Source of the DNA: Heliocybe sulcata
Taxonomy: Eukaryota > Basidiomycota > Agaricomycetes > Gloeophyllales > Gloeophyllaceae
NCBI GenBank assembly: GCA_004369045.1
Contig: ML213503.1
Span: forward strand, 2,280,341-2,344,340
Length of the DNA stretch: 64,000 nt
Direction: 5' to 3'
The first letter of the stretch is position 1. Each line of letters opens with the position of its first letter. The notes beneath the pieces are model-generated. The model was given only the letters and a program-made list of their open reading frames with translations. It was not told where the DNA came from and ran no database searches. Position numbers and translations under genes: made by a program. Below are positions 820 to 43,968 of the stretch, one piece after another.

Positions 820-3800
820 TTATTCTAAGTTCCCATTCAACTCGATATACCCGCCCAGGATGTCTATTGATAAGCCAGGCTTCTCGACAAGGAAGAATCG
901 ATGTTGAGGAATATCTTGCCTGGGTAGCTTGATATGGTGGGGAACCATGGCGATGACCGAGAGTATCGACTTGATGTCGATGGCGAGGACATCGTCGGGC
1001 ACTCCGGGAAGGCATGATGATAGGGTACCATGTGATAGATCTTCCAGAGTAGGGTCAGGATCAGAAAATCGTCGGATTAGGGCGCAAGGGGGACATGGTG
1101 GGCAATTGTTGAGGGCTTCATCCAGCTTGATAAAGTAGAGTACTTCGGTGATGAACACAAACACACGACAAAACCCGGAAAGAGGAAGACCTAAACAAAC
1201 AACAACAACCACACACCAGCACCAATCCCTTGGTGCTGCCGCAGCTGCGAGGCCCCGGGAATCGAAGGGTATGAATGTAGTTCGGAGGGAGTCAATGGGA
1301 AATATAGGACTGAGACCACAAGCCACAAGAGCGACGTAGCAAAGCGCTAAAAATAGAACAAGCGGCAAAAGCGACCGGAAGCGACGGAGAACGCTACAGA
1401 AGCGACAAACGTGCTGAACGCTAAAAACAGATGTAGACTCCAAAAATAGAATGAAGCGAAAAGACCTCTGGTGTCTGGCAAAACACAGACAGCAAAAGCT
1501 CTGAAAGAAACGGACGGAAAGCGCACAATGAGCGAAACAGCGACGCGTGGGAAAATATGACGAAGTGACAGCGGCGGGTGTAGCGACAGCACCCAATAGT
1601 TGGCAATAGCTAGGGACGACTCGGAGCGTAGAGTGGCGAAGATTTCGTGAAGCGCAGGATAGTGAGCGACGCTTGCCAGCAGTTTAGCGACAAGCAGCGA
1701 CTTTAGCAGGTTTAGCGACGATGAGCGGGATTAGCGACGGCGACGCAGGAAACTCAGACAGAGATGCAGGATAGAGAGGGGAACACTGGATTGCGCAGGG
1801 AGGACGAGATACAAGCTCTGGGGGGACTCTGGTAGCCTCGGAAACCTGAATTACGAGTACAGGAGGTGCTACTCTAGTAGTCTACCTGCCTAAACTAAAT
1901 ATCCGAGGTCCCTGTGCTAAACAATAAGAACAATAACTATATGCAAAACAATAAGAAAGGCTAGACCCAAACCCGAACCTCGGAACAAGCTCCTGGAGCT
2001 GCAGTGTCCATATACGGAAGCGGCCGCTGTCCGACACAAGCGTGGGAATGTGCGCTCGTCGCATCAAAAGCGCTGCCGATGAGCGGCCGGACGACGGACG
2101 GTGCCGGCAAGGCACGCACACTCTCGGAAATGACTCGAAATGACTGAGACGACCTAGAACAAGACCATCGGCTATTGCCGAAGTGTCGCTGCGTCGCTGC
2201 ACTGCACCGCTACGACGTGCCGCCAGCGCCGACGCCGACAGCGACGAAGCGCCGCTGCAGCGCTGCATATCGAGAGGCCAGCGACAGCCTATGGAACGAT
2301 TCGGAGCGTCTGTCGGGCGAGATCGGAGCTCAGGAAAAACCAGGAAATAACGGAAAAATCCATAGAAACTCGAATATCGCTCGTAGCGTGACGCCGCGGA
2401 TACGCTCACTATCGCACAGAGCGTGGGAATCTGCGTAAATGGCCTGAAAATGTGTTTTCGGTGCTCAGAGACACGTAGGGCGTATTATCGGCAATAAATA
2501 CCTTGTTATTGTTCTGAACCTAGCAACGATGGAATGAATATCATTGCAGGCATAGAGTATGGGGCCGCTCACCTTCACCATGCGTGATACACGCGCATTG
2601 TCATTGGAGCGCTCAAGCTCCTTCCAAGCGGATCGTGCTATATGACCATTTGGAAGCCGTACCTTTGACCAGTGGTGGATGCGAATGTACGGTCGCGCAC
2701 GGTCCTCATAGCAGGACAGATACTCCCGGATAGCCCGAGCTTCTGATCCCTGTATACGGCGTGCATACCTGTCCCAAGCACGAAGAAGTACATAGCCATC
2801 GCCTAGATCAACTGCACCGCAAGGGAGTGCAGTCTCATCTGGTATAAGGTCGGGGACCATTGCCTGAAGCGCAGACATGCATACATGGCGTAGTGTGACT
2901 TGGGTGAGGTTGGCAAACGGGTTGGATGGCTGGTGAACTAGACGACCGAGGAATCCAATCGCGTTTTCTGTAGAGCACTGTGAATGACAAACCCCAGGGC
3001 CATATTCGATAACAAGCTGAGGGAGGTGCGTTATGGTGTGGGCAGAGGGCCGTACGAGTGGAATCCGAGAATCCTTGCGCTGATAATAGATGTGCTCGTA
3101 TTCGTCCTCCCATGACACCAGTGCCTTGTGGGCAGAATCGATTTGCTGCTCCGTAATAGTACGCTGGCATATAATTCGGACACCGTAGACCAGCTTGCAG
3201 TAGTGTCGCCAGATTGGAAGTGGAAGGACATCATAAAATAGTCCCGGGCCAATACCGTAGATGTAGTTCATGTATTCGATAGCCTTGTAGCCGCTACTAA
3301 TTTTCTCAACGGGATTCCGAGGTGCACGCCCAAATGAGGTCGGCAAGTATGGGCGTACAGCTGCAACATCGTCCCCGTGTCTGGTCCAGACATTTCCCTG
3401 GAGCACGGCCCAATCCCAAGTGCGCTTATCCTGCCCAGGGCATTTGAGAGTTCCGCGCCAGAGAGGGATCAGAAGGTCGAGTATATTCAGAGCTGGGAGA
3501 TGCATGATGTCGACACCAAATACTTTGGGAGAGCCGAAACTACGGGAGATACCGCTGAAGATTGTCGGCTTGCAAATACCTGTCTGTAGACGTAAGTCCT
3601 TGTAATGTGAGGGATTGTTGGCAGTCTTGAGCAGGGTCAGATTGCGGTCGTATTCTTCCTTGGTTGGATTGGGAGGGCCGAGAGGAAGATCCGGAAAGTC
3701 AGACCCAGCAACGGCGCGATCAGGCTTTAGGCGGACGGGATAATATCTTGTTCCATCCTTCTTGCGGCGTCCTTTCTGAGGACAGTATATCCGGCATCCA

Positions 3801-5421
3801 TGAAAGCCCTGGCTGCCGACAAGGCCATTTAGTGCAGCCATACCAGGCACATCGGCAAGGGCAAGCAGAAGCCAAGGACGGGAATGGAATACCAGGCCCG
3901 TGAGCGCATTCCAGATTGGAAGACCAGGCTCGGCGGAGATAGCGGAAAAGTGGTGCAGGCCAGGGAAAAGAAACAAGTCCAGGTTTTTCGGCTTGTTTGG
4001 TCCAGGGATAATAGTACCAGGTATGATATGCTTCTTTTTGTAGCGCTTATTGGGCGAGAGGTCAACTATAACCCAAATATATATCCAAAAGTCGGATAGC
4101 TTGTTCTTGTACAACTGGGCGCCGTCGGCAGAGAACATGAGAACCATGTCCTCATCTTGGATATCGCCAGAGTTGACTGCTTCGAGATAAGCATTGCCAC
4201 AGAGCACATCGTCGAATTCATCGAGATGAGGTCGGTTGCTGGTCTCAAGAAGGTCGAAGAGTTGTTTTGTACGAGTCTGACGGTACATCATAGACTCAGC
4301 GCTCTCGGGGGACCGCATGAGCGCCTGTAGCTGTGGACCAACTGGGAATGTCGAGAACGTCTGGTAAGGGATGTGCTTGCCTCTTTTGCTCTTCTTTGGA
4401 TCATAGTGCAGGTGTGCGCAGTACTTGCAAGTGTCGAGATCAGCATAAGGACCAGTATATGCCATACAGCTGTTCTTGCACATGTCGTAGACGATTGGGT
4501 AGATGCCAGTCAACTCTCCTGTCAGTTTCCGGACTTCGTAGAATGAAAGCATTTTGACACCTTCACCGAAGCGTTCGCGAACTGCTCGTTGCATGGACTT
4601 GTAGCACTGCTCGGAGGCCTCAGTGAGCGAGAGGTAAACGCGTATCGAGAATAGAATGTCGGGGTCGTCAATCTCAAGGATGGACTGGGGGGGGGTCGAG
4701 GAGACGTTGGAGCACTTCGTCGTCCATACGAGAGTGGCCGTCAGACAGCGTAGCATTCTTAATCAACTTGATATATTGATCAGCGTCCCTAATCTCGTCT
4801 ATGTTGCCAATGTACTCTTCATACTCTGGATCTGTATCAAGTTGATCTTCGTCATCCAAATCACTCTCGTGCAGAAGGTTGTCGTCCACCAGCGCATCTT
4901 CATCGTCATCCTCCAGCTCATCATCTATGTCAGAGGCATGCTCAGAATGTTCTTCGTCAGAGAGATGCTGGAAGAAGTCGTTGGCAGGGAGTTCGGGCAT
5001 GTTGAAGTCGTGTTCGTCGCGTAAATGGTCGTCAAAGTCCGGATGCTCTGGCAGTTGGGTGTGAGCGTTATTGGGATATTCCGCATCATGCATGGGACTG
5101 TCATGGTTGGATTCCTTGTGGATTGTCAGTATGTCTCATTTGGTGCAGTTCAAACTGTTTACTCACTATACGCTCACTGTCAGATCCTGTGTCAGGAGGA
5201 CCGCGCTTTCTGGCAGCACCGTTGGTACTCCGAGAGGATGCTTGTACCGCAGTGGAACTAGTGGTACATAGATATGCTTGCATGTCGGCGATATAGCGGT
5301 TTTGAGTCTCTTCATGACAACGCTTTTTATGTGTGTAAAATGTGCGCTCGCTGATCCATTTGCCCCCACCGCATTTTTCTTCGCAATCGCAAAAGACCTT
5401 GCCTTCGGGGTTTCGACGCAT
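820..5421 (-). mobile_element. Tnp2-like (CACTA-type) DNA transposase gene, disrupted
   Basis: Exon 5421-5167 encodes an N-terminal zinc-binding segment (CDCEEKCGGG, then ISERTFYTHKKRCH) as in Agaricomycete Tnp2-like transposases. After an intron, the exon from 5114 down to about 2573 carries an acidic linker and the transposase core, with ADGAQLYKNKLSDFW and PGTIIPGPNKPKNLDLFLFPGL. The last part, 1142-820, matches the family C-terminus as I know it (SILSVIAMVPH, FFLVEKPGLSIDILGGY). A run of nine C at 4687-4695 (read on the minus strand) throws the frame out, and the final exon is separated from the core by 1.4 kb of GCGAC-rich DNA. Probably inactive. Class is confident; exact ends of the element are not. 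Confidence 0.8.
1143..2572. repeat. GCGAC-rich insert or giant intron inside the transposase gene
   Basis: Between the transposase core exon and its C-terminal exon lies 1.4 kb in which AGCGAC and its complement GTCGCT recur many times (dense at 1330-1780 and 2160-2300). Most introns in this window are 50-100 bp, so this is far outside the local range. It is most simply a second, non-coding repeat inserted into the gene or its intron. No clear terminal inverted repeats or target duplication were found by eye. Long minus-strand open frames here (for example 2409-1882) look like side effects of base composition. Confidence 0.55.
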
Positions 5422-24660: not shown

Positions 24661-24932
24661 AGGACTCTGGCGTTTGTTGTGGTACGGTTCTGGCGTACTC
24701 CATGTATAGGTAGCAAGAAATGGGACATTGGGATGCTCCAGTGTATGATTCTGTCTGGCACGGAATCTGCACCTTCCTGAGACAACTCTGCTGATCCCAA
24801 GAGTGCGCAAAGACGTGTGGAACTCGTTAGCTTTGTGGCGCAGTCACGGTCACGTGTTGTCGCCACCGTGACGCCGTCGCACTGTCGCAGGCAAGTCGCA
24901 CCTTGCCCTGCCCCCTAGTGTTGAAAGTCACT

Positions 24933-26139
24933 ATGCGTAGCTTGTCTAAGGTATCAGTGCAATTGACTCCTGCTCAGAAGCATCTATACGCTACAGAGAC
25001 CCAAGTCAACTTCCGTCTGATTGCAAAACTCGTTGCTACCCGATCTCGTCGCATTTTAACTGCAGCGGACCTAGTCTCAGCTGACCTCCAAGCCGAGCTA
25101 GCTGAATACTCGCAGTTCGTGGAACTGAGCTACGATGCTATGCCAGTGGAGACGGTGTATCAGAAAATGGACGTTCTATCGCGGCCAAACTTTCCGCTGG
25201 AGCAGTCTGACGCTGTTCTGGAAACGAAGCTTCTGAAGTCCCTCCATGGTCGAGTTGCGAACCTCCATGCTTTCCTGGCTTATCGACCGTCGAAGAAGCA
25301 ACTTGTTTTGGCTATCTCAGGGACTCATAATATAAAGCAAGTCTTTCAAGACCTACGTGCAATCAGGAAACCTTATCGTCAGGGGAAGGGATGTGCTGTG
25401 CACACAGGCTTTTGGAAGTTGTACAAGGGCATCAAGGAGGCAGCGATGGAGAGCCTCCACGACACTCTACAGCCACTATCGCAAGATGTTCAGGAGATCG
25501 TAATTACTGGACACAGCATGGGCGGGGCTGTCGGCTCACTGCTAGCCCTGGACTTACTTCTCAATCAAGCTGAACTTCTCGGCGGCCGTAGGCTCAAGCT
25601 GATATTCTACGGCGCTCCAAGGGTCGGCAATGCGAAGCTAGCGGAACTTTGGAGTGATGCCACTCAGAAGTATCGCTCGGAGCACGGCGAAGGCTCTCTA
25701 ACAGAATGCCTCGTCAAGGGCTACAATGATGGTGAGGTGTCCGCCATCATATCATCTCACTCTCCCTTGCTGACTGGTTCGCATGTCGACAGGTGTTCCT
25801 TCGCTTCCTCCGTATAAGCTCGGTTACAGACATGTCACCAAGAGCCAGCTCTACTCTGTAGGAGGGCGGTTGTACCACATACCTCCTTCCGAATGCGAAC
25901 ATGGGCTTTTTGATATCTCTGAAGACGCCAAAGCAGCGGGGACTGCTGTGCTTTATCCCAGAGGCGGTCACAATTACTACAGCGAAAGAGATTGGGAACG
26001 CATCATGCGGCGTCTTGCCTGGCTGGTGGACAATATGGACCGGTACCCGGACTGGGAGAAGCGATATTATAAGGAAGTGATCGGTCCAGAACAAGCATGG
26101 CAGCGCAAGATAGCTGGTTCCAAACCGAAATATGCATGA
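24933..26139 (+). CDS. Class 3 lipase-like hydrolase, copy 1
   Basis: Two exons (24933-25731, 25793-26139) encode 381 residues. The nucleophile elbow GHSMGGAV puts the catalytic Ser at 195. The Asp is probably that of YNDGVPSLPP, split by the intron, and the His that of RGGHNYYSERDW. Class 3 lipases cut acylglycerols or related esters. There is no signal peptide, so it is probably intracellular. The next gene is a close paralogue with its single intron at the same place (after the codon for Asp in NDG), so the two arose by tandem duplication. Confidence 0.88.
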
Positions 26140-26376
26140 ATACCCCCATGTCCCGGAGCACCCAGCTGCCGTGACTCCTGCTCTTAAAGTCGAGCATTCC
26201 TGTGCCACGTGCACGTGATTACACGTGTTGTTGCTGCCCATGGTCTTTTTATAGTTGCTGACCATTGCATCATTTACTACGTGCGTATGGGCGCTCCATC
26301 CTCCATATAACTTACCCATCACGTCTCCCTTCAGCTAGACTCTCTTCCTCACCTTGCTCCAGCCGACTAAGAAGGA

Positions 26377-27657
26377 ATGTTCAGCTATGTCGGCCGGCTA
26401 CTGTCGAGGGACGCGTTGGAGCTGGCGCCTGCGCAGAAGTACATGTACGATCACGAGTCTCTCGGCAATTTCCGGGTCATATCGAGGATCGTTGCCACCC
26501 GCTCTCGCTACGTCCTGACATCCAAGGATGCTGCCCCTTCGGAGCTGCAGCGAGAGTTGGCCGAGCTGGGGCACTTCTCTGAATTGGCATACAATGTCAT
26601 GCCTGTCGAGATGGTCTATAGCAATTTGGAGTTATTGACGCAACCAGGCTTTCCGCTAGAAGATGCCGAGGTCATCAAGGATTCCCAGTTATTACAGTCC
26701 TTTGTCGGATCTGTGGCAAATTTACCGGGATTCACTGCATACCGTAGTGCCAGAAAGCAGCTCGTCGTTGCGATATCTGGAACGCGTACACTCAAACATG
26801 TTGCGTACGACTTCCGCAATCAGATGACCCGTCACCCTGCCTGTAAGAAGTGCTTAGTGCATAAAGGCTTCTGGAAGCTATACCTAGGGTTGAAGGCACC
26901 GGTGATGACTGCCATCCGAGATGCTTTGATGGAGAAAGCAGGAGAAATCGAAGAGCTCGCTATAACGGGGCACAGCATGGGAGGCGCCATGAGCTACCTT
27001 CTCGCTTTGGATTTGTTGTTGGAGAAGGAAATTTTGCTCCCTGGTCTGAGAATCAAGTTGGCTGTGTTCGGTTCTCCGAGAGTCGGGAATAAACGGCTGG
27101 CCCGCGTATGGCGGAAGGCTGTAGATGACTACCGTATGGAGTACGGGCAGGAAGCGTTACTGGAATATTCGGTGAAGATATACAACGATGGTAAGTCTTG
27201 TTCATATTCGCCCACTTCCTGTAATAACTGTTCGATGCCATGATTAGGAGCAACTTCCCTTCCTCCCCACAGCTGGAAGTATAGACATTTCACGAAAACG
27301 CCTCTGTATCACTACGGCAGCCGACTTTATCGCGTTCCATCCAGCGAGTGCGAACACGGTGTTTTCCGTGTATCTGTTGGAGAAGAGGAAGAAAGGCGGA
27401 GGCTGCAATTTCCCAGGGGTGGGCATGGATACTACAACGACCGGGATATGGAGTCGTTTGCGAATCGTCTGTCATGGATCGCAGAGCATATGGGGGAGGA
27501 GGGGTGGAAGGAAAGGTATTTGGAGCAAGTCAAGGCCCGTGAGGAGTTAGCGGAAGCGCAAGCTGTTACGAAGAAGCGGTGGAAAGCCATAGCACGTCCG
27601 ATTGTCCGCAGACCAAGTGGGTCGGAGACCACCAAAGTCGACGATGCAAGACAATGA
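26377..27657 (+). CDS. Class 3 lipase-like hydrolase, copy 2
   Basis: Two exons (26377-27190, 27248-27657) encode 407 residues. It matches the upstream gene along its whole length: AISGTRTLKHVAYDF, TGHSMGGAMSYLLALDLL (Ser 200), FGSPRVGNKRLA, then SSECEHGVF and RGGHGYYNDRD near the end. In place of GVPSLPP it has GATSLPP, and it carries a longer, Lys/Arg/Glu-rich C-terminal tail of about 40 residues. The two copies are 237 bp apart and in the same direction. No signal peptide. Confidence 0.88.
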
Positions 27658-36979: not shown

Positions 36980-39900
36980 ATGTTTCCGTCTTCTTCGTTC
37001 GAACGCGGCTCGACTTCACGACACGACACGCCCTTCCCTCAGAATGCTTTCACCGCTTCATTATCCTCTAATATAATCGCTAGTGGTGTACCAGATATCT
37101 CAGCACTTCCAAACAAATCCTTGGCTCCTCCTTCTAGTCTCAAGAAATCTGTTTCCGTGGATTCCTTCATGAGCGCCAGGCGGGACTCTGGCTCGTTGGA
37201 CGGTGAGGCATATCCGACCAGGGTGGATACCGATAGAGACCTACAAGAGGCTCCTTCTGTCCCTCCGCAGATGTCTGGACTAAGGGGAAGAACGAGTACC
37301 ATTGCCTCCGGGGGCCCTCATACGCCATGGAGAGAGGACGCCACAGTCTTCTCAAGCGTGTCGTCGCGAGACCGAGGCGTAAGCCTAAGTAAACACACCT
37401 ACGACGATTTACTGGTAGAGGAATCTGAGGAGGAACGCTCCGAGTCATCCTTCACTTCGGGCGAGAGTTCTAGGGCGTCGTCGAAAGGTGGAATACCAGC
37501 TCGAGCCGATACACGACCAGGAGAGTTGTTCCTACCCCCACGATTACCGCCCCTCACTTCCGAAATGGGATACAGCGACTCGGAATATTATACGCCTAGT
37601 CTTCGTGCGGATAGGATGTCCTTTAATGCCATTGGACCCTCCTCGCGACTGCGCAGTGGCAGCCTCGGAACGGCGGCTACCCAAAGGAACAATTCTCCAT
37701 CAGCTCATGCAGATAGCTGGACTCCTAACATGCCATGGCCCACGATCTCTATTGCAGTCGTAGGCACCTCTCATTGCGGCAAATCCACCTTCGTAGAAAA
37801 GGGTTTGAAGGCTTACAATCTCTCCAAACCAACGGCTTGTTCAGTTCCTGTCGGGGACAATGGATCCTTCAACTGTATGTACGAATGAGTCTGATATTTG
37901 AATGAGTGGCGTCATGAACGAATCTTTGTTTAGATACTTTTCGGACCGGGAAAATTCCACGTCCGCACAGTAGCCATGGCCGAGTACTTGGCCTAATGGA
38001 GGTGGATGTCCCTGCTCGAAATCTGGATCACGTCAGCACATCTGCTGGACCCGTGTGGCCTGGTGGTGCCCCGGACATACAAGGTGTTCTCATATGTTAC
38101 GACAGCTCGGATGAAACCTCGTTCCAGCCTGTCGAGAGGTTGCTAAGTAAGACAGTACTTAGTGGACACAACAGGCACTAATAGCCCAAGACTTTAGGGG
38201 AATATCGGGAGTTGAAGTTGCCAACCGTCGTCGTGGCCTGCAAATCCGATCTCGAACGTCGTGTTCCCACTCGGAAAGGTCATTCTTTGGCAAGCTCATT
38301 TGACACCGGAATTGTCGAAGTCAGTGAAGTCGATGATGCCGGGACAGAGAAGATGCAACGATGTTTCGACTGGCTGCTGCGGGCCATATTCAAAGAGAAG
38401 CGTATGTCTACAAAGCGCCCGCTCCGTGCCTTATGTGATTCGCTCATAATCATGTGTCTTTAGGCGTCATCCGGAGTGACCTGACCGGATCCTATCGAAA
38501 TCCAGCGTCGCCCGATGTGCTGGATTCCCAAATCGCATGGGAGCCACCCCGGTCGAACAACACGACACCAACTCCCGCTTCCGTCGCCGCACAGGCGTTC
38601 ATTGCATCCTCCAAGAATTCGCGGTCCGGATTGCGTACTCCAACATCACCAACGCGTGCACGGTCCACTAGTGACTTAGCTTCCGAGCACGAGCGGCAGA
38701 GGAATCTGGGTAATGGCAAGGGGAGAGCAGATCCCAGTTCTGTGGCTGGTTCGGACTTTCAAGGCGACTTAGGCTCTCGACTATCCATGGCACCCGTCCA
38801 GAGCGCCACATCGGGGATCGGCGAATCCGCCGAATCTTTGTCCGACAGTCGAGAGAAAGAAGCGTGCGTACTTTGATGTTCTGCGTTGATTAATCTGACC
38901 TGCTTGAGAGCAGTCCAGTGCCATGGGCTACCGTCGATCAACTACTGGACAAGTTGTTATTCCTTGCTATAAGCGGTGATGGTGAATATTGCTGAATATT
39001 CCTACGCAACGCCGCAACTCACTACAAACTGTCAGATCCTACTTTCATAACGCACTTCCTTTTGACATATCGTCGTTTCGCAACACCGCGTAGCGTTCTG
39101 TTGGCCATGCAGAAGCGGATGATTCAGCTAACGCAGTCATCGAGCGACCCTATGTTCTCGGCATACGCCCAAATGAGGTATGCCGCTTGAATCCGTCTCG
39201 AATCACCAATGTTGATTCGCGTTCAGAATATGTCACCTCCTTGAAAGATGGATGCAAGATTATCGTGGAGATTTTGCTGTCGGCGGGACACAGGGAGCAT
39301 TCAACGCTGTCATCAACACCGTTGTGAGCAAGACATATCTCCTGCACTACGGATCGGAGTTCCTCTCTTTCCGCGACGAGTTACCGACGCTCGTGGACAA
39401 TGACGCTTCATGGGGATCAAAACCGAGGGAGTTTTCGGAAGGCAGCGATGACTCGTCCTCTAGTCATCATGGGGATGGCGAATCCTTAGCGGAAGTTCCT
39501 AGGACTGCCAAGATGGGCGCCTCTGCCAGCGATCCTTCTGACATGCGCAATATTTCTCGAGAGCGCAGACCGAGTTTACCTCTCACCGCGAAGTCACTGG
39601 TCATACAGACGACTACTCTTTCGGTCAACTCGAGTCAGTCGAGTCAGGGAGACTCGTCCGAGATGTCCCAGAAGCAGATCATCAAAGAGCTACAAAAGAT
39701 GGCGCACGAAGTGAACAACCTCGAGTCTACACATATCGCGCAGGAAATCACCCTCATAGAAGCCAGATTGTTCCTCGACATACAGGTGAATTTGGGAATC
39801 CCTTTACTCATGCATGATGAGCGTTAATCATCGTCTGTAGCCGCGACACTGGCTTAAACATATTCTCGTGCCTGGGCGCAAGGAGCCTGATACCGACTCT

Positions 39901-40756
39901 ATTGCGAGATTCAATCAGGTATCCAGTCACCTTGCTGATTGGTGAGAAGCGCCAGTCGCTACGATGATTCTCCTTCGCTGACCGCTGTTAAACTGGTTCA
40001 GGGTGGTCTCCTTGATACTGTGCCACGATAGGCCGAAGGCTCGGGCGAAGCAGATCGAGAAATTCGTAGACATCGCTTACCATCTACGGAGGATGAATAA
40101 TTACTCGGCCTTGCGAGCCTTTGTTGCTGGCGTAAACAACTCTACATTCCAAGGAGATGAGACGATGGCTGCATTCAAGGAGAAATCGGAGAAGCATTAT
40201 AAGCAGCTTCAGTCATACGACGTCCTGCTTCAATCCATCCGGTCTCATCGCGCCTATCGTATGGCGCTCCGGAATACTAGAGGAGCATGCATACCTGCCC
40301 TGTGAGTCTGTCCAGGTGTCGATCAGACCTTTACTCAACGGTCGCAGTGAGGTTCATATCTCGGATCTCATCCGAACGCATGAAGGTAACCCTGACGTGA
40401 AGGCCGACGACCCGTCCAAAATCCATTGGGGCAAGTACAACCTCATGGGCAGGTTCATTTCGACTATCATCCAATGTCAAGTACAGTGCCGGACATCTCT
40501 TGACTACGATTTCCCTGAGCAGCCCCATATTTCTGACCTGCTGCTCAAGGACTGCCTCATGGGTGAAGGGGTAAGCTGTTTCTCAATAGGTTCCAGTCGG
40601 CACAACTCTGATTGTCCGCTGGATTGTCAGATGCAACAATCGCGTATAGCCGCTATTTCTGACGGGGCGGGAGCAGACGACGGTTATGGTGGCGGTCTCG
40701 TCAACCCGCCATCTGGGAAAGACCCAACGCTTATCAAGAAAATTTTCTTCTGGTAG
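36980..40756 (+). CDS. Ras guanine-nucleotide exchange factor with N-terminal Ras-like domain
   Basis: Eleven exons (36980-37874, 37934-38146, 38198-38401, 38464-38863, 38914-38981, 39036-39177, 39227-39785, 39841-39941, 40002-40301, 40348-40570, 40631-40756) give 1076 residues. After a Ser-rich region of about 250 residues comes a Ras-like domain: P-loop VVGTSHCGKSTFV (Lys near 268), VLICYDSSDETSF, and ACKSD in place of NKxD; no clear DxxG is seen. A Ser/Thr-rich linker leads to the RasGEF-N domain (DPTFITHFLLTYRRFATP, near 594). The CDC25-type catalytic domain follows (LDIQPRHWLKH, DWVVSLILCHDRPKARAKQI, TFQGDETMAAFKEK, NLMGRFISTIIQCQ). It should load GTP on a Ras-family protein. Confidence 0.9.
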
Positions 40757-41313: not shown

Positions 41314-43968
41314 ATGGCTCCAGAAGATGACTTTGTAATGACCATAGAGTCGGATGACGAAAGTCCATCAGAACCTACGAAGGCCACTAACACCAAGTCA
41401 CAAGTAAATCCTGATGCCGACTTCGCTCAACTGAACCCCGAATTCAACTTCAGCATATCTGGAGATGCCCTGGAAGCAATAACACTCGGAGATGGAGGGC
41501 TCACTTCAGGATCAGCTTCGCAAAAACTGGTGGGTCTGATTATATGCCGCGGTCGTGATTGCCCTTAGTTCATTTTCGCATCCGCAGGAGCCCGTGTCTA
41601 TCGACGATATCATCTCTAGACGGAGATCGAAGCTGCCGAAGAAGAGAAAAAGACAGACTAGTGTCTCTGAGGATGAGGGCGACGAGGAAGACCAATCCGC
41701 TCCTGCTTCGGACAGTGAGGAAGACCCACTCGTTACCGATGAAGAAGCAGATGAGGAGGGCGGTTCTGAACCAGAGGAAGAGGAGGAGATATCTTCAGAG
41801 AATGAGTCCTCCTTAGACGGCTCAGACGAAGAGACGCAAGCTGAGAAGGACAGGAAGGCCGCTTTCTTCTCCGAGGCAGAACCTTCCGAGGCCCATTCAT
41901 CTTTCCTTACCATGAACCTCTCCCGGCCGATACTCAAAGCGCTCACGTCCATGGGCTTCAGTACTCCTACGCCAATCCAGGCTGCTACTATTCCTGTAGG
42001 CTTACTGGGCAAGGATGTAGTTGGCAACGCTGTCACGGGTTCCGGAAAAACAGCTGCATTCATTATACCTATGATCGAGCGCCTGCTCTATAGAGAACGA
42101 GGAAAGAGAGCCGCGGCCACTCGATGCCTCATCCTTGTCCCTACTCGAGAACTGGCCGCGCAATGTTTCGAAGTGGGGACAAAACTTGCTGCCCATACTG
42201 ATATTCAATTCTGTCTTGTCGTAGGTAAGTGTACTGAAAAAAGCTCTGACTTTGCCGTCTTAATGAATCTGCATCAGGTGGCTTGTCGGTCAAGGCTCAG
42301 GAGGCAGCCTTACGGAACAGGCCGGACGTAGTGATTGCGACGCCAGGCCGTCTTATTGATCATATTCGAAACTCGCCCTCGTTTACCTTGGATGCGCTGG
42401 ATATTACAGTGCTGGACGAAGCTGATCGGATGTTATCTGAGGGCTTTCACGATGAGCTGACAGAGATCATCAGGTCGTGTCCTCCATCGAGACAGACGAT
42501 GTTATTCTCCGCCACGATGACAGACTCAGTGGATGAACTGGTCAAGATGTCGTTGAACAAGCCAGTCCGTCTCTTCGTGGACCCGTCGCGCGCGACTGCC
42601 AAAGGGCTCGTGCAGGAGTTCATCCGAGTGCGGAGTGGAAAGGAAGAAGAACGGCCCGCCATCCTTGTCACGGTCTGCAAGAAGTTGTTCAAGAGTAATG
42701 TGATTATATTCTATCGAAGCAAGAAGCTCGCGCACCAGATGCGTATCGTCTTTGGGCTCTTAGGGATGTCATGCGAGGAGCTGCATGGGGATTTGACACA
42801 AGAGCAAGTCTGTATGTTCCCTCGTCTATTGGGATATTACCAGCTGACACATTTCTCTAGCGCCTGAAAGCATTACGGGCTTTCCGTGATGGTCAGGCGG
42901 ACTATCTTATGGCTACTGACCTCGCTTCGCGAGGTCTGGACATTAAAGGCGTCACCACGGTTATCAACTACGACATGCCTAACGATTTAGCCCAATATCT
43001 GCATCGTGTCGGACGTACTGCCAGAGCTGGCAAGAAAGGACGGTATGTCCTACTGCTTGGATCGTAACATTTTGTCACTGAATGTCGCCCAGATCTGTGA
43101 GCTTAGTAGGGGAATCCGACCGCAAATTACTGAAAGCGGCAGTGAAACGCAGCTCTGGCGCCGATTCGGTGCGGCATCGAGTTTTGGCTGCTGAGGACGT
43201 CGCCAAATGGGTGCAGGAGTTGGAGGAGTTGAAGGGCGAAGTGGCTGATATTCTCAAGGAGGAGAAGGAGGAGAAACAGGTGGGTCCGCGCCCGTGTACA
43301 CTTGTCCATAACTCACACCTCCCTAGTTACGCCGAGCGGAGATGGAGTTGAAGAAGGGGCAGAACATGATAGAGCACGAGGAAGAAATATACTCTAGACC
43401 TGCTCGAACATGGTTCCAATCCACTAAGGACAAGGCAAAATCGGCCGGTACGTTTCCCATACTCTCCCATAAGCGCCTATGTGACGGAAATCGGTAGTAT
43501 TGAGCAAGCAGGCACACGAGGCAGGATCTGATGGTCTAGGCAAAGCCAAAGCCAAGACTGGTCCCGATGAGAACAAAGTAAGCATATAACCATCGTGCTA
43601 GGGCGCATCCGCTCAACCTATATTAGCGCAAGAGAGACAAGTACGCTGGCTTGACTCGGAGAGCGAAGAGGCGGAAGATGGCTATGGAGGAAGATGCTGA
43701 TGATGGCAAGGCGGTTGACGCAGCTGTCAGAGCTGCGAAGAAAGCGGCTCGTCCAGCTAAGATCGGCGAACCTGAGCGCCGTCCGCCTGGCTCGAAGAAG
43801 TCAAGGGACAAAAAGAACGCAAAGACTAAGGTTGGAGGCTCTGGGCGAGGCTCTGCGTTTGGTCAGGAACTGGGGCAATCTGCGAAGCGGGAAGGGGTAC
43901 GTGCGAAGAAGGGAGTGCAAACCGGTCTAGGTAACAAGAAGGTCGGTAAGCGCCGGACTAGGCGATAG
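41314..43968 (+). CDS. DRS1: DEAD-box RNA helicase DRS1 (DDX27)
   Basis: Eight exons (41314-41529, 41588-42224, 42278-42807, 42861-43042, 43093-43279, 43327-43447, 43498-43577, 43627-43968) give 764 residues. After an acidic N-terminus come the Q motif ([20 protein letters not shown]), motif [22 protein letters not shown], the DEAD box at 331-334 ([10 protein letters not shown]), SAT, and motif [13 protein letters not shown] very basic C-terminal tail ([20 protein letters not shown]) matches DRS1/DDX27, a nucleolar helicase needed for 60S subunit assembly. DRS1 follows MPP10 in pathway but not in position. Confidence 0.93.

Follow-up and report, generated by a model that had tools for sequence, protein, structure and literature searches.

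Introduction

Fungal Ras guanine nucleotide exchange factors (RasGEFs) of the RasGRP class have been described as carrying an N-terminal small-GTPase domain labelled "Miro" (PMC6522298, published in 2019 and citing van Dam 2009). For Aspergillus fumigatus GefC a mitochondrial-Rho-like domain is predicted at the N terminus, and Neurospora crassa and Cryptococcus neoformans have homologues of this protein; a mitochondrial role was proposed from the Miro label. Deletion of gefC delays germination by one hour and leads to cell-wall stress sensitivity, and since homologues of GefC were detected only together with homologues of RasB, GefC may serve RasB (PMC6522298). Here we describe a gene that resembles this class in the basidiomycete Heliocybe sulcata. 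It lies at 36980-40756 on the forward strand of a 64,000-nucleotide stretch, hereafter called the window (assembly GCA_004369045.1, contig ML213503.1, positions 2,280,341 to 2,344,340), and is predicted to encode a RasGEF preceded by a degenerate Ras-like G domain.

A Ras-like domain and a RasGEF domain also share one chain in Dictyostelium GbpC, where the Roc (Ras-like) domain binds GTP and the RasGEF domain specifically activated nucleotide exchange on this Roc domain (PMC6320773). Degenerate members of the Ras superfamily, for which three classes of pseudo-GTPases have been defined, can affect the activity of the regulator they are part of, as removal of the pseudo-GTPase domains of p190RhoGAP lowers its RhoGAP activity (PMC5593906). 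Structures of the EF-hand and C-terminal GTPase portion of human Miro1 bound to GDP or GMPPCP are virtually superimposable (PMC5015425), thus such a domain can hold a nucleotide without visible switching. The excerpt of PMC12525002, which deals with Neurospora rasgef, mentions neither Miro nor a P-loop. Given the GefC-class report and the GbpC and p190RhoGAP precedents, the type of fusion has already been published, and so has the concept of a pseudo-GTPase with a regulatory role. A first-pass annotation of the window, made from its letters only, had called the fusion of a Ras-like domain with its own class of activator unusual, a description that GefC-class RasGEFs and GbpC do not allow to stand.

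Results

Gene structure and domain layout

The gene consists of 11 exons whose splicing yields a single open frame of 1,074 amino acids, with the stop codon ending at 40756. Exons 1 to 6 were placed at 36980-37874, 37934-38146, 38198-38401, 38464-38863, 38914-38975 and 39036-39177, and exons 7 to 11 at 39227-39785, 39841-39941, 40002-40301, 40348-40570 and 40631-40756, all on the forward strand and on the basis of the open frame, the Pfam matches and a second gene described below. All ten introns follow the GT-AG rule and measure between 46 and 62 nt. A splice-aware aligner that was fed the finished protein recovered them identically, which is a check of the alignment and not independent support.

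A Pfam search with the full protein returned three domains in the order Ras, RasGEF_N and RasGEF. Residues 1-254 (36980..37741) form an N-terminal region without a Pfam domain that is partly common to the second gene. The degenerate Ras-like G domain follows at about residues 255-436 (37742..38400) and is spread over three exons, with the introns 37875-37933 and 38147-38197 inside. Ras (PF00071) matches residues 346-433 with an E value of 9.2e-8 and 32.3 bits against a cut-off of 21.6, and the G domain searched alone matched Ras at E 1e-9, far beyond chance. A poorly conserved linker, about residues 438-575 (38464..38926, interrupted by the intron 38864-38913), leads to the RasGEF_N (REM) domain at residues 576-656 (38927..39278; PF00618, E 4e-11), and the CDC25/RasGEF catalytic domain occupies residues 808-989 (39732..40438; PF00617, E 2.3e-39; PDB chains of SOS2/SOS1 at E ~2e-17). 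Neither a COR nor a kinase domain was among the four Pfam matches obtained up to E 10, and the order of Roc followed by COR that characterizes Roco proteins is absent at this threshold. As a gene model, the predicted protein belongs to a type already known from fungi: it joins a CDC25-type Ras exchange factor to an N-terminal Ras-superfamily domain that is most likely a pseudo-GTPase. It resembles GefC in the succession of an N-terminal small-GTPase-type domain, REM and CDC25 in a fungal protein. It differs, in a comparison made by description only, in that Pfam calls the domain Ras and not Miro/Roc and in that this genome holds two copies.

A second gene with the same layout

The assembly of 31.6 Mb in 51 contigs, which includes the window, was searched for the G domain. 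Besides the window gene, one other place was detected, C1:3201576-3202244 on the reverse strand, upstream of a RasGEF match at C1:3199716-3200279. Splicing of this second gene gave a protein of 966 amino acids in which Pfam finds Ras (E 2.7e-6), RasGEF_N (1.9e-9) and RasGEF (1.9e-38). Identity between the two proteins amounts to 40.9% in the G domain (181 aligned of 186 residues), 58.1% in REM (160 of 162) and 60.7% in CDC25 (229 of 233), and to 19.4% in the linker (residues 439-570, 124 of 132 aligned). Both genes have ten introns, eight of which sit at the same residue and in the same phase; another is off by one residue, and the one that differs lies at the start of the linker. Since the second gene shares both the domain order and the motif losses of the window gene, the fusion most likely predates the duplication and would have been kept in both genes.

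To place this pair among the RasGEFs of the genome, the 15 RasGEF matches in the assembly were grouped by hand into nine loci, and stretches of 5.5-7.5 kb around them were subjected to a splice-aware scan. A G domain was detected at two of the nine. The remaining seven gave none, with a top z of 3.2 (MiroC query, locus L052; six shuffles each), in a scan that would miss first exons outside the fetched stretches; the negatives of the Ras1 and Rab1 queries are weak, as the domain already known gave these two a z of just -0.2 to 2.5. Viral contigs scanned with the two-copy alignment yielded 35 pattern hits, none of which was confirmed, and no RasGEF match was obtained in 14 control genomes.

Two further RasGEF loci drew attention. 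A Miro gene (C7:1126249-1126461, reverse strand, EF_assoc_2) and a RasGEF gene at C7:1130109-1130821 are some 4 kb apart on the same strand, perhaps by chance; the splice-aware scan found no Ras-like domain at this RasGEF. At L048 (G000:C3:1692500-1699500), a kinase match (PK_Tyr_Ser-Thr, E 1.6e-23) stands on the reverse strand upstream of a same-strand RasGEF match, within locus positions 4226 to ~1860, with a Ser-rich stretch and a REM-like start between the two. Read from unspliced sequence, this is perhaps a kinase-RasGEF fusion.

Motifs and fold of the G domain

The P-loop (G1) is intact at residues 262-270 (37763..37789), where the window copy reads GTSHCGKST and the second gene GTRGCGKTT. 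The pattern GxxxxGK[ST] is matched in both genes, as GTSHCGKS and GTRGCGKT; the invariant residues are Gly, Thr, Cys, Gly, Lys and the final Thr. G3 is lost: neither the reading frame nor the alignment of the pair shows a DxxG motif in either copy. At the place of G4, residues 383-387 (38236..38250), ACKSD replaces NKxD and is unchanged in the second gene, so that both copies have CKSD, in which the Asn is lost and the Lys and Asp are kept; VACKSD is invariant between them. A G5 motif of the SAK/SAL type was not found in either copy, VEVSEV (window) and VEVTSN (second gene), with VEV invariant, standing where ETSAK would be expected. These readings agree with the first-pass annotation, which had proposed a P-loop and a Ras-like domain ahead of RasGEF-N and CDC25, the replacement of NKxD by ACKSD, the lack of a clear DxxG or SAK motif, and a built-in G domain in partial decay. 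The P-loop and ACKSD sit in frame, the Ras match exceeds the Pfam cut-off, and the second gene repeats both the domain and its pattern of losses.

DxxG serves as the gamma-phosphate sensor in GTPases, and its loss removes that sensor. A normal switch cycle is therefore unlikely for this domain, although nucleotide contacts through the P-loop Lys and the two kept residues of CKSD, Lys and Asp, are conceivable.

The Pfam Ras alignment spans only the second half of the fold (profile positions 71-160), as do the alignments of the window copy and of a two-copy profile with the GTPases of the same genome (positions 91-186). The two-copy profile aligned over positions 9-147 with the Miro C-terminal domain (probability 96.4), and the second copy aligned over positions 6-179 with the genome's GTPases (probability 97.6). 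On account of these two alignments and the P-loop, the first half is taken to belong to the Ras fold as well. By the definition given in PMC5593906 the domain would be a pseudo-GTPase, its G motifs being lost and its Ras-like fold inferred from homology.

The exchange factor half

Among PDB chains, the CDC25 domain is closest to SOS2 (E 1.6e-17) and SOS1 (E ~2e-17), followed by RasGRP4 (3.5e-16), the guanine nucleotide-releasing protein 2ije (2.9e-14), RasGRP1 (5.4e-14) and 7nzz, a Cdc25 (6.1e-14); SOS2 and RasGRP4 score alike. The SOS1 hairpin TNILKTEEGNP aligns with SDLIRTHEGNP, and the two inserting positions, in SOS1 the nucleotide-displacing residues that we take to be L938 and E942, are Ile, a conservative replacement, and Glu. 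The catalytic hairpin thus looks intact, and the REM-CDC25 half is likely an active exchange factor.

Relationship of the G domain to other GTPases

To ask which GTPase the domain came from, 28 G domains of the genome were assembled. Two were dropped, L079 as incomplete and L080 as translation-factor-like; the other 26 entered the similarity ranking and the tree, and 25 a tree without the Miro C-terminal domain (MiroC). Some of the spliced models carry small local errors, which adds noise, and Rab11, Rheb, Ras1 and the like are names that we gave to the genome's own genes by resemblance.

In phmmer comparisons with the 26 domains, the window copy scored highest with Rab11 (21.6 bits), MiroC (21.0) and Ras1 (16.9), the second copy with MiroC (20.6) and Rheb (18.1), and both copies together with Rheb (30.0), MiroC (27.8) and Rab11 (26.6). 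In shuffled Smith-Waterman comparisons the window copy came closest to Ras1 (z 12.8) and Rab11 (12.1) and the second copy to Rheb (z 11.7); MiroC reached 11.0 with the former and 10.2 with the latter. The tree united the two copies as sisters (99/98, starred). The pair joined MiroC at 84/80, a grouping that was not starred and in which long branches meet; once MiroC was left out, the pair stood beside the Rabs at 31/0. Approximately unbiased (AU) tests without MiroC rejected none of the placements with Ras (p 0.067), Rho (0.49), Rheb (0.30) or Miro-N (0.30).

In the Miro protein of this genome (C7, ~1,126 kb), the C-terminal domain keeps the P-loop, lacks DxxG and reads ATKSD, a pattern that resembles that of the RasGEF G domains with which it groups in the tree. 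A MiroC query also detected the domain at both loci in the splice-aware scan (z 11.6 and 6.3, the match at the window locus extending beyond the G domain), whereas Ras1 and Rab1 queries hardly did, which is a mild point for Miro. A PDB search with the two-copy profile placed EhRabX3, Rit1, Rab11 and Sec4 on top and Rheb lower, with no Miro among the best 60 of 170 matches, and the window copy alone retrieved one Miro chain at E 0.03. The best of these matches, the Entamoeba small GTPase EhRabX3 (E 2.3e-8 for the whole sequence), differs in being a chain of 391 residues, which we take to consist of tandem G domains with no exchange factor.

Pfam calls the domain Ras, and PF08477, now named Roc and in older releases Miro or Miro-like, was not among the matches of either copy. 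In this genome PF08477 matches 36 places, including Ran, Rab and other small-GTPase genes, and the "Miro domain" label of the literature may rest on this general model. MiroC, Rab11, Rheb and Ras1 score alike, and a direct descent of the G domain from Miro is a possibility that we do not adopt.

A divergent Ras-family protein at G000:C20:54300-57000 (L065), read from an automatic splice model, has VFDPVDTA where Ras has ILDTAG, and is possibly another degenerate Ras-type GTPase of this genome.

Other features of the window

Just 3' of the RasGEF gene, at 41540-42328 on the forward strand, lies a DEAD-box helicase (E 1.6e-21) with an acidic N-terminal region. Two adjoining forward-strand frames at 24831-25814 and 26371-27240 match Lipase class 3 (E 7.2e-25 and 4.2e-23) and are probably a tandem lipase pair. 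A 765-codon frame at 2468-4762 on the reverse strand matches Transposase_21 of the tnp2 family (E 2e-9), and represents a copy or remnant of a transposon that we take to be of the CACTA type.

Discussion

Our first choice, to which we give about an even chance, is that the exchange factor is under the control, in cis, of a non-cycling G domain to which a nucleotide may be bound. The first-pass annotation had suggested a domain that senses nucleotide or holds the GEF in check, and either role is possible. The REM-CDC25 half would act as exchange factor for a separate Ras-family protein. Lacking the DxxG gamma-phosphate element, the G domain would not cycle, and the P-loop with the Lys and Asp of CKSD would fit a nucleotide held as a structural ligand. 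Acting in cis, the domain may mask or position the REM-CDC25 core, or anchor the exchange factor at a membrane or binding partner, comparable to the effect that the pseudo-GTPase domains of p190RhoGAP have on its GAP activity. The Pfam-level domains in both genes, the common P-loop and CKSD, and the hairpin residues favour this explanation, as do the matching architecture of the second gene, the GefC-class and p190RhoGAP precedents, and the pattern of the Miro C-terminal domain together with the human Miro1 structures. The likeness to pG1 and pG2 of p190RhoGAP lies in degenerate Ras-superfamily domains that reside inside a regulator of small GTPases and affect its activity; p190RhoGAP, however, is a GAP and not a GEF, and the P-loop is intact in the RasGEF described here.

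Several points weigh against control in cis. The pG1 domain of p190RhoGAP, also degenerate, binds no nucleotide (PMC5593906), and the kept P-loop of the RasGEF may therefore be structural only. Regulation in cis is argued from precedent alone. The N-terminal region (residues 1-250, 36.4% identity, 140 of 250 aligned) and an acidic stretch before CDC25 (residues 736-800, 44.3%, 61 of 65 aligned) are also conserved between the two proteins, and the G domain is therefore not the sole regulatory candidate. The window protein served as guide when introns were assigned in the second gene, which biases toward agreement. A low-confidence model of the exon-3 fragment alone (pLDDT 56.4) shows three helices and no strand, even where one would be expected just before CKSD, and speaks neither for nor against the Ras-like fold.

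The strongest competitor holds that the G domain is a docking or targeting module of class i, which binds no nucleotide and recruits the exchange factor to some organelle or binding partner while leaving its activity untouched. The loss of DxxG, of the Asn of NKxD and of SAK in both copies would suit such a module, of which PMC5593906 names p190RhoGAP pG1/pG2, CENP-M and a fungal dynein light intermediate chain as examples, and the mitochondrial role suggested from the Miro label points the same way (PMC6522298). Two copies that are only ~41% identical have, however, both kept Gly, Lys and Ser/Thr in the P-loop and Lys and Asp in CKSD, which suggests that the nucleotide site is in use, and we regard pure docking as possible and distinctly less probable than control in cis.

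It is improbable that the G domain is a substrate of the exchange factor in its own chain, in the manner of GbpC, whose RasGEF is reported to activate exchange specifically on its Roc domain (PMC6320773). A Ras-like domain and a RasGEF share one chain in both proteins and the P-loop here is intact, but both copies lack the switch II DxxG, the element adjacent to the site of CDC25 action. GbpC, moreover, also has LRR, COR, kinase, DEP, GRAM and cGMP-binding domains, whereas no COR or kinase domain accompanies this RasGEF.

A conjecture of similarly slim prospects would let the pseudo-GTPase permanently replace the Ras molecule that binds SOS allosterically, acting in cis on the distal REM/CDC25 pocket and setting the exchange rate, with the P-loop nucleotide making the exchange factor respond to the cellular GTP level.

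That exons 1 to 3 are a separate small-GTPase-like gene, with the exchange factor beginning downstream, could be argued from the poorly conserved linker and from a gene structure read from genomic sequence alone, but the spliced frame stays open throughout and its introns are GT-AG, a second locus repeats the order and most of the introns, and this architecture has been reported in other fungi (PMC6522298). The idea is thus very improbable, and we reject this reading, which the first-pass annotation had named as a possible refutation, because the second gene repeats the layout.

A literature search, within the limited listings it returned, found no study of what the G domain itself does in a fungal RasGEF. 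The mitochondrial role in print rests on the Miro label (PMC6522298), and Miro is not singled out by the comparisons made here. Retained within the chain by both genes of this fungus, the GTPase-like domain is a candidate for the control of the exchange factor, and the pattern of losses common to both copies, in which the P-loop is kept, DxxG is lost and CKSD stands at G4, predicts a domain that does not cycle.

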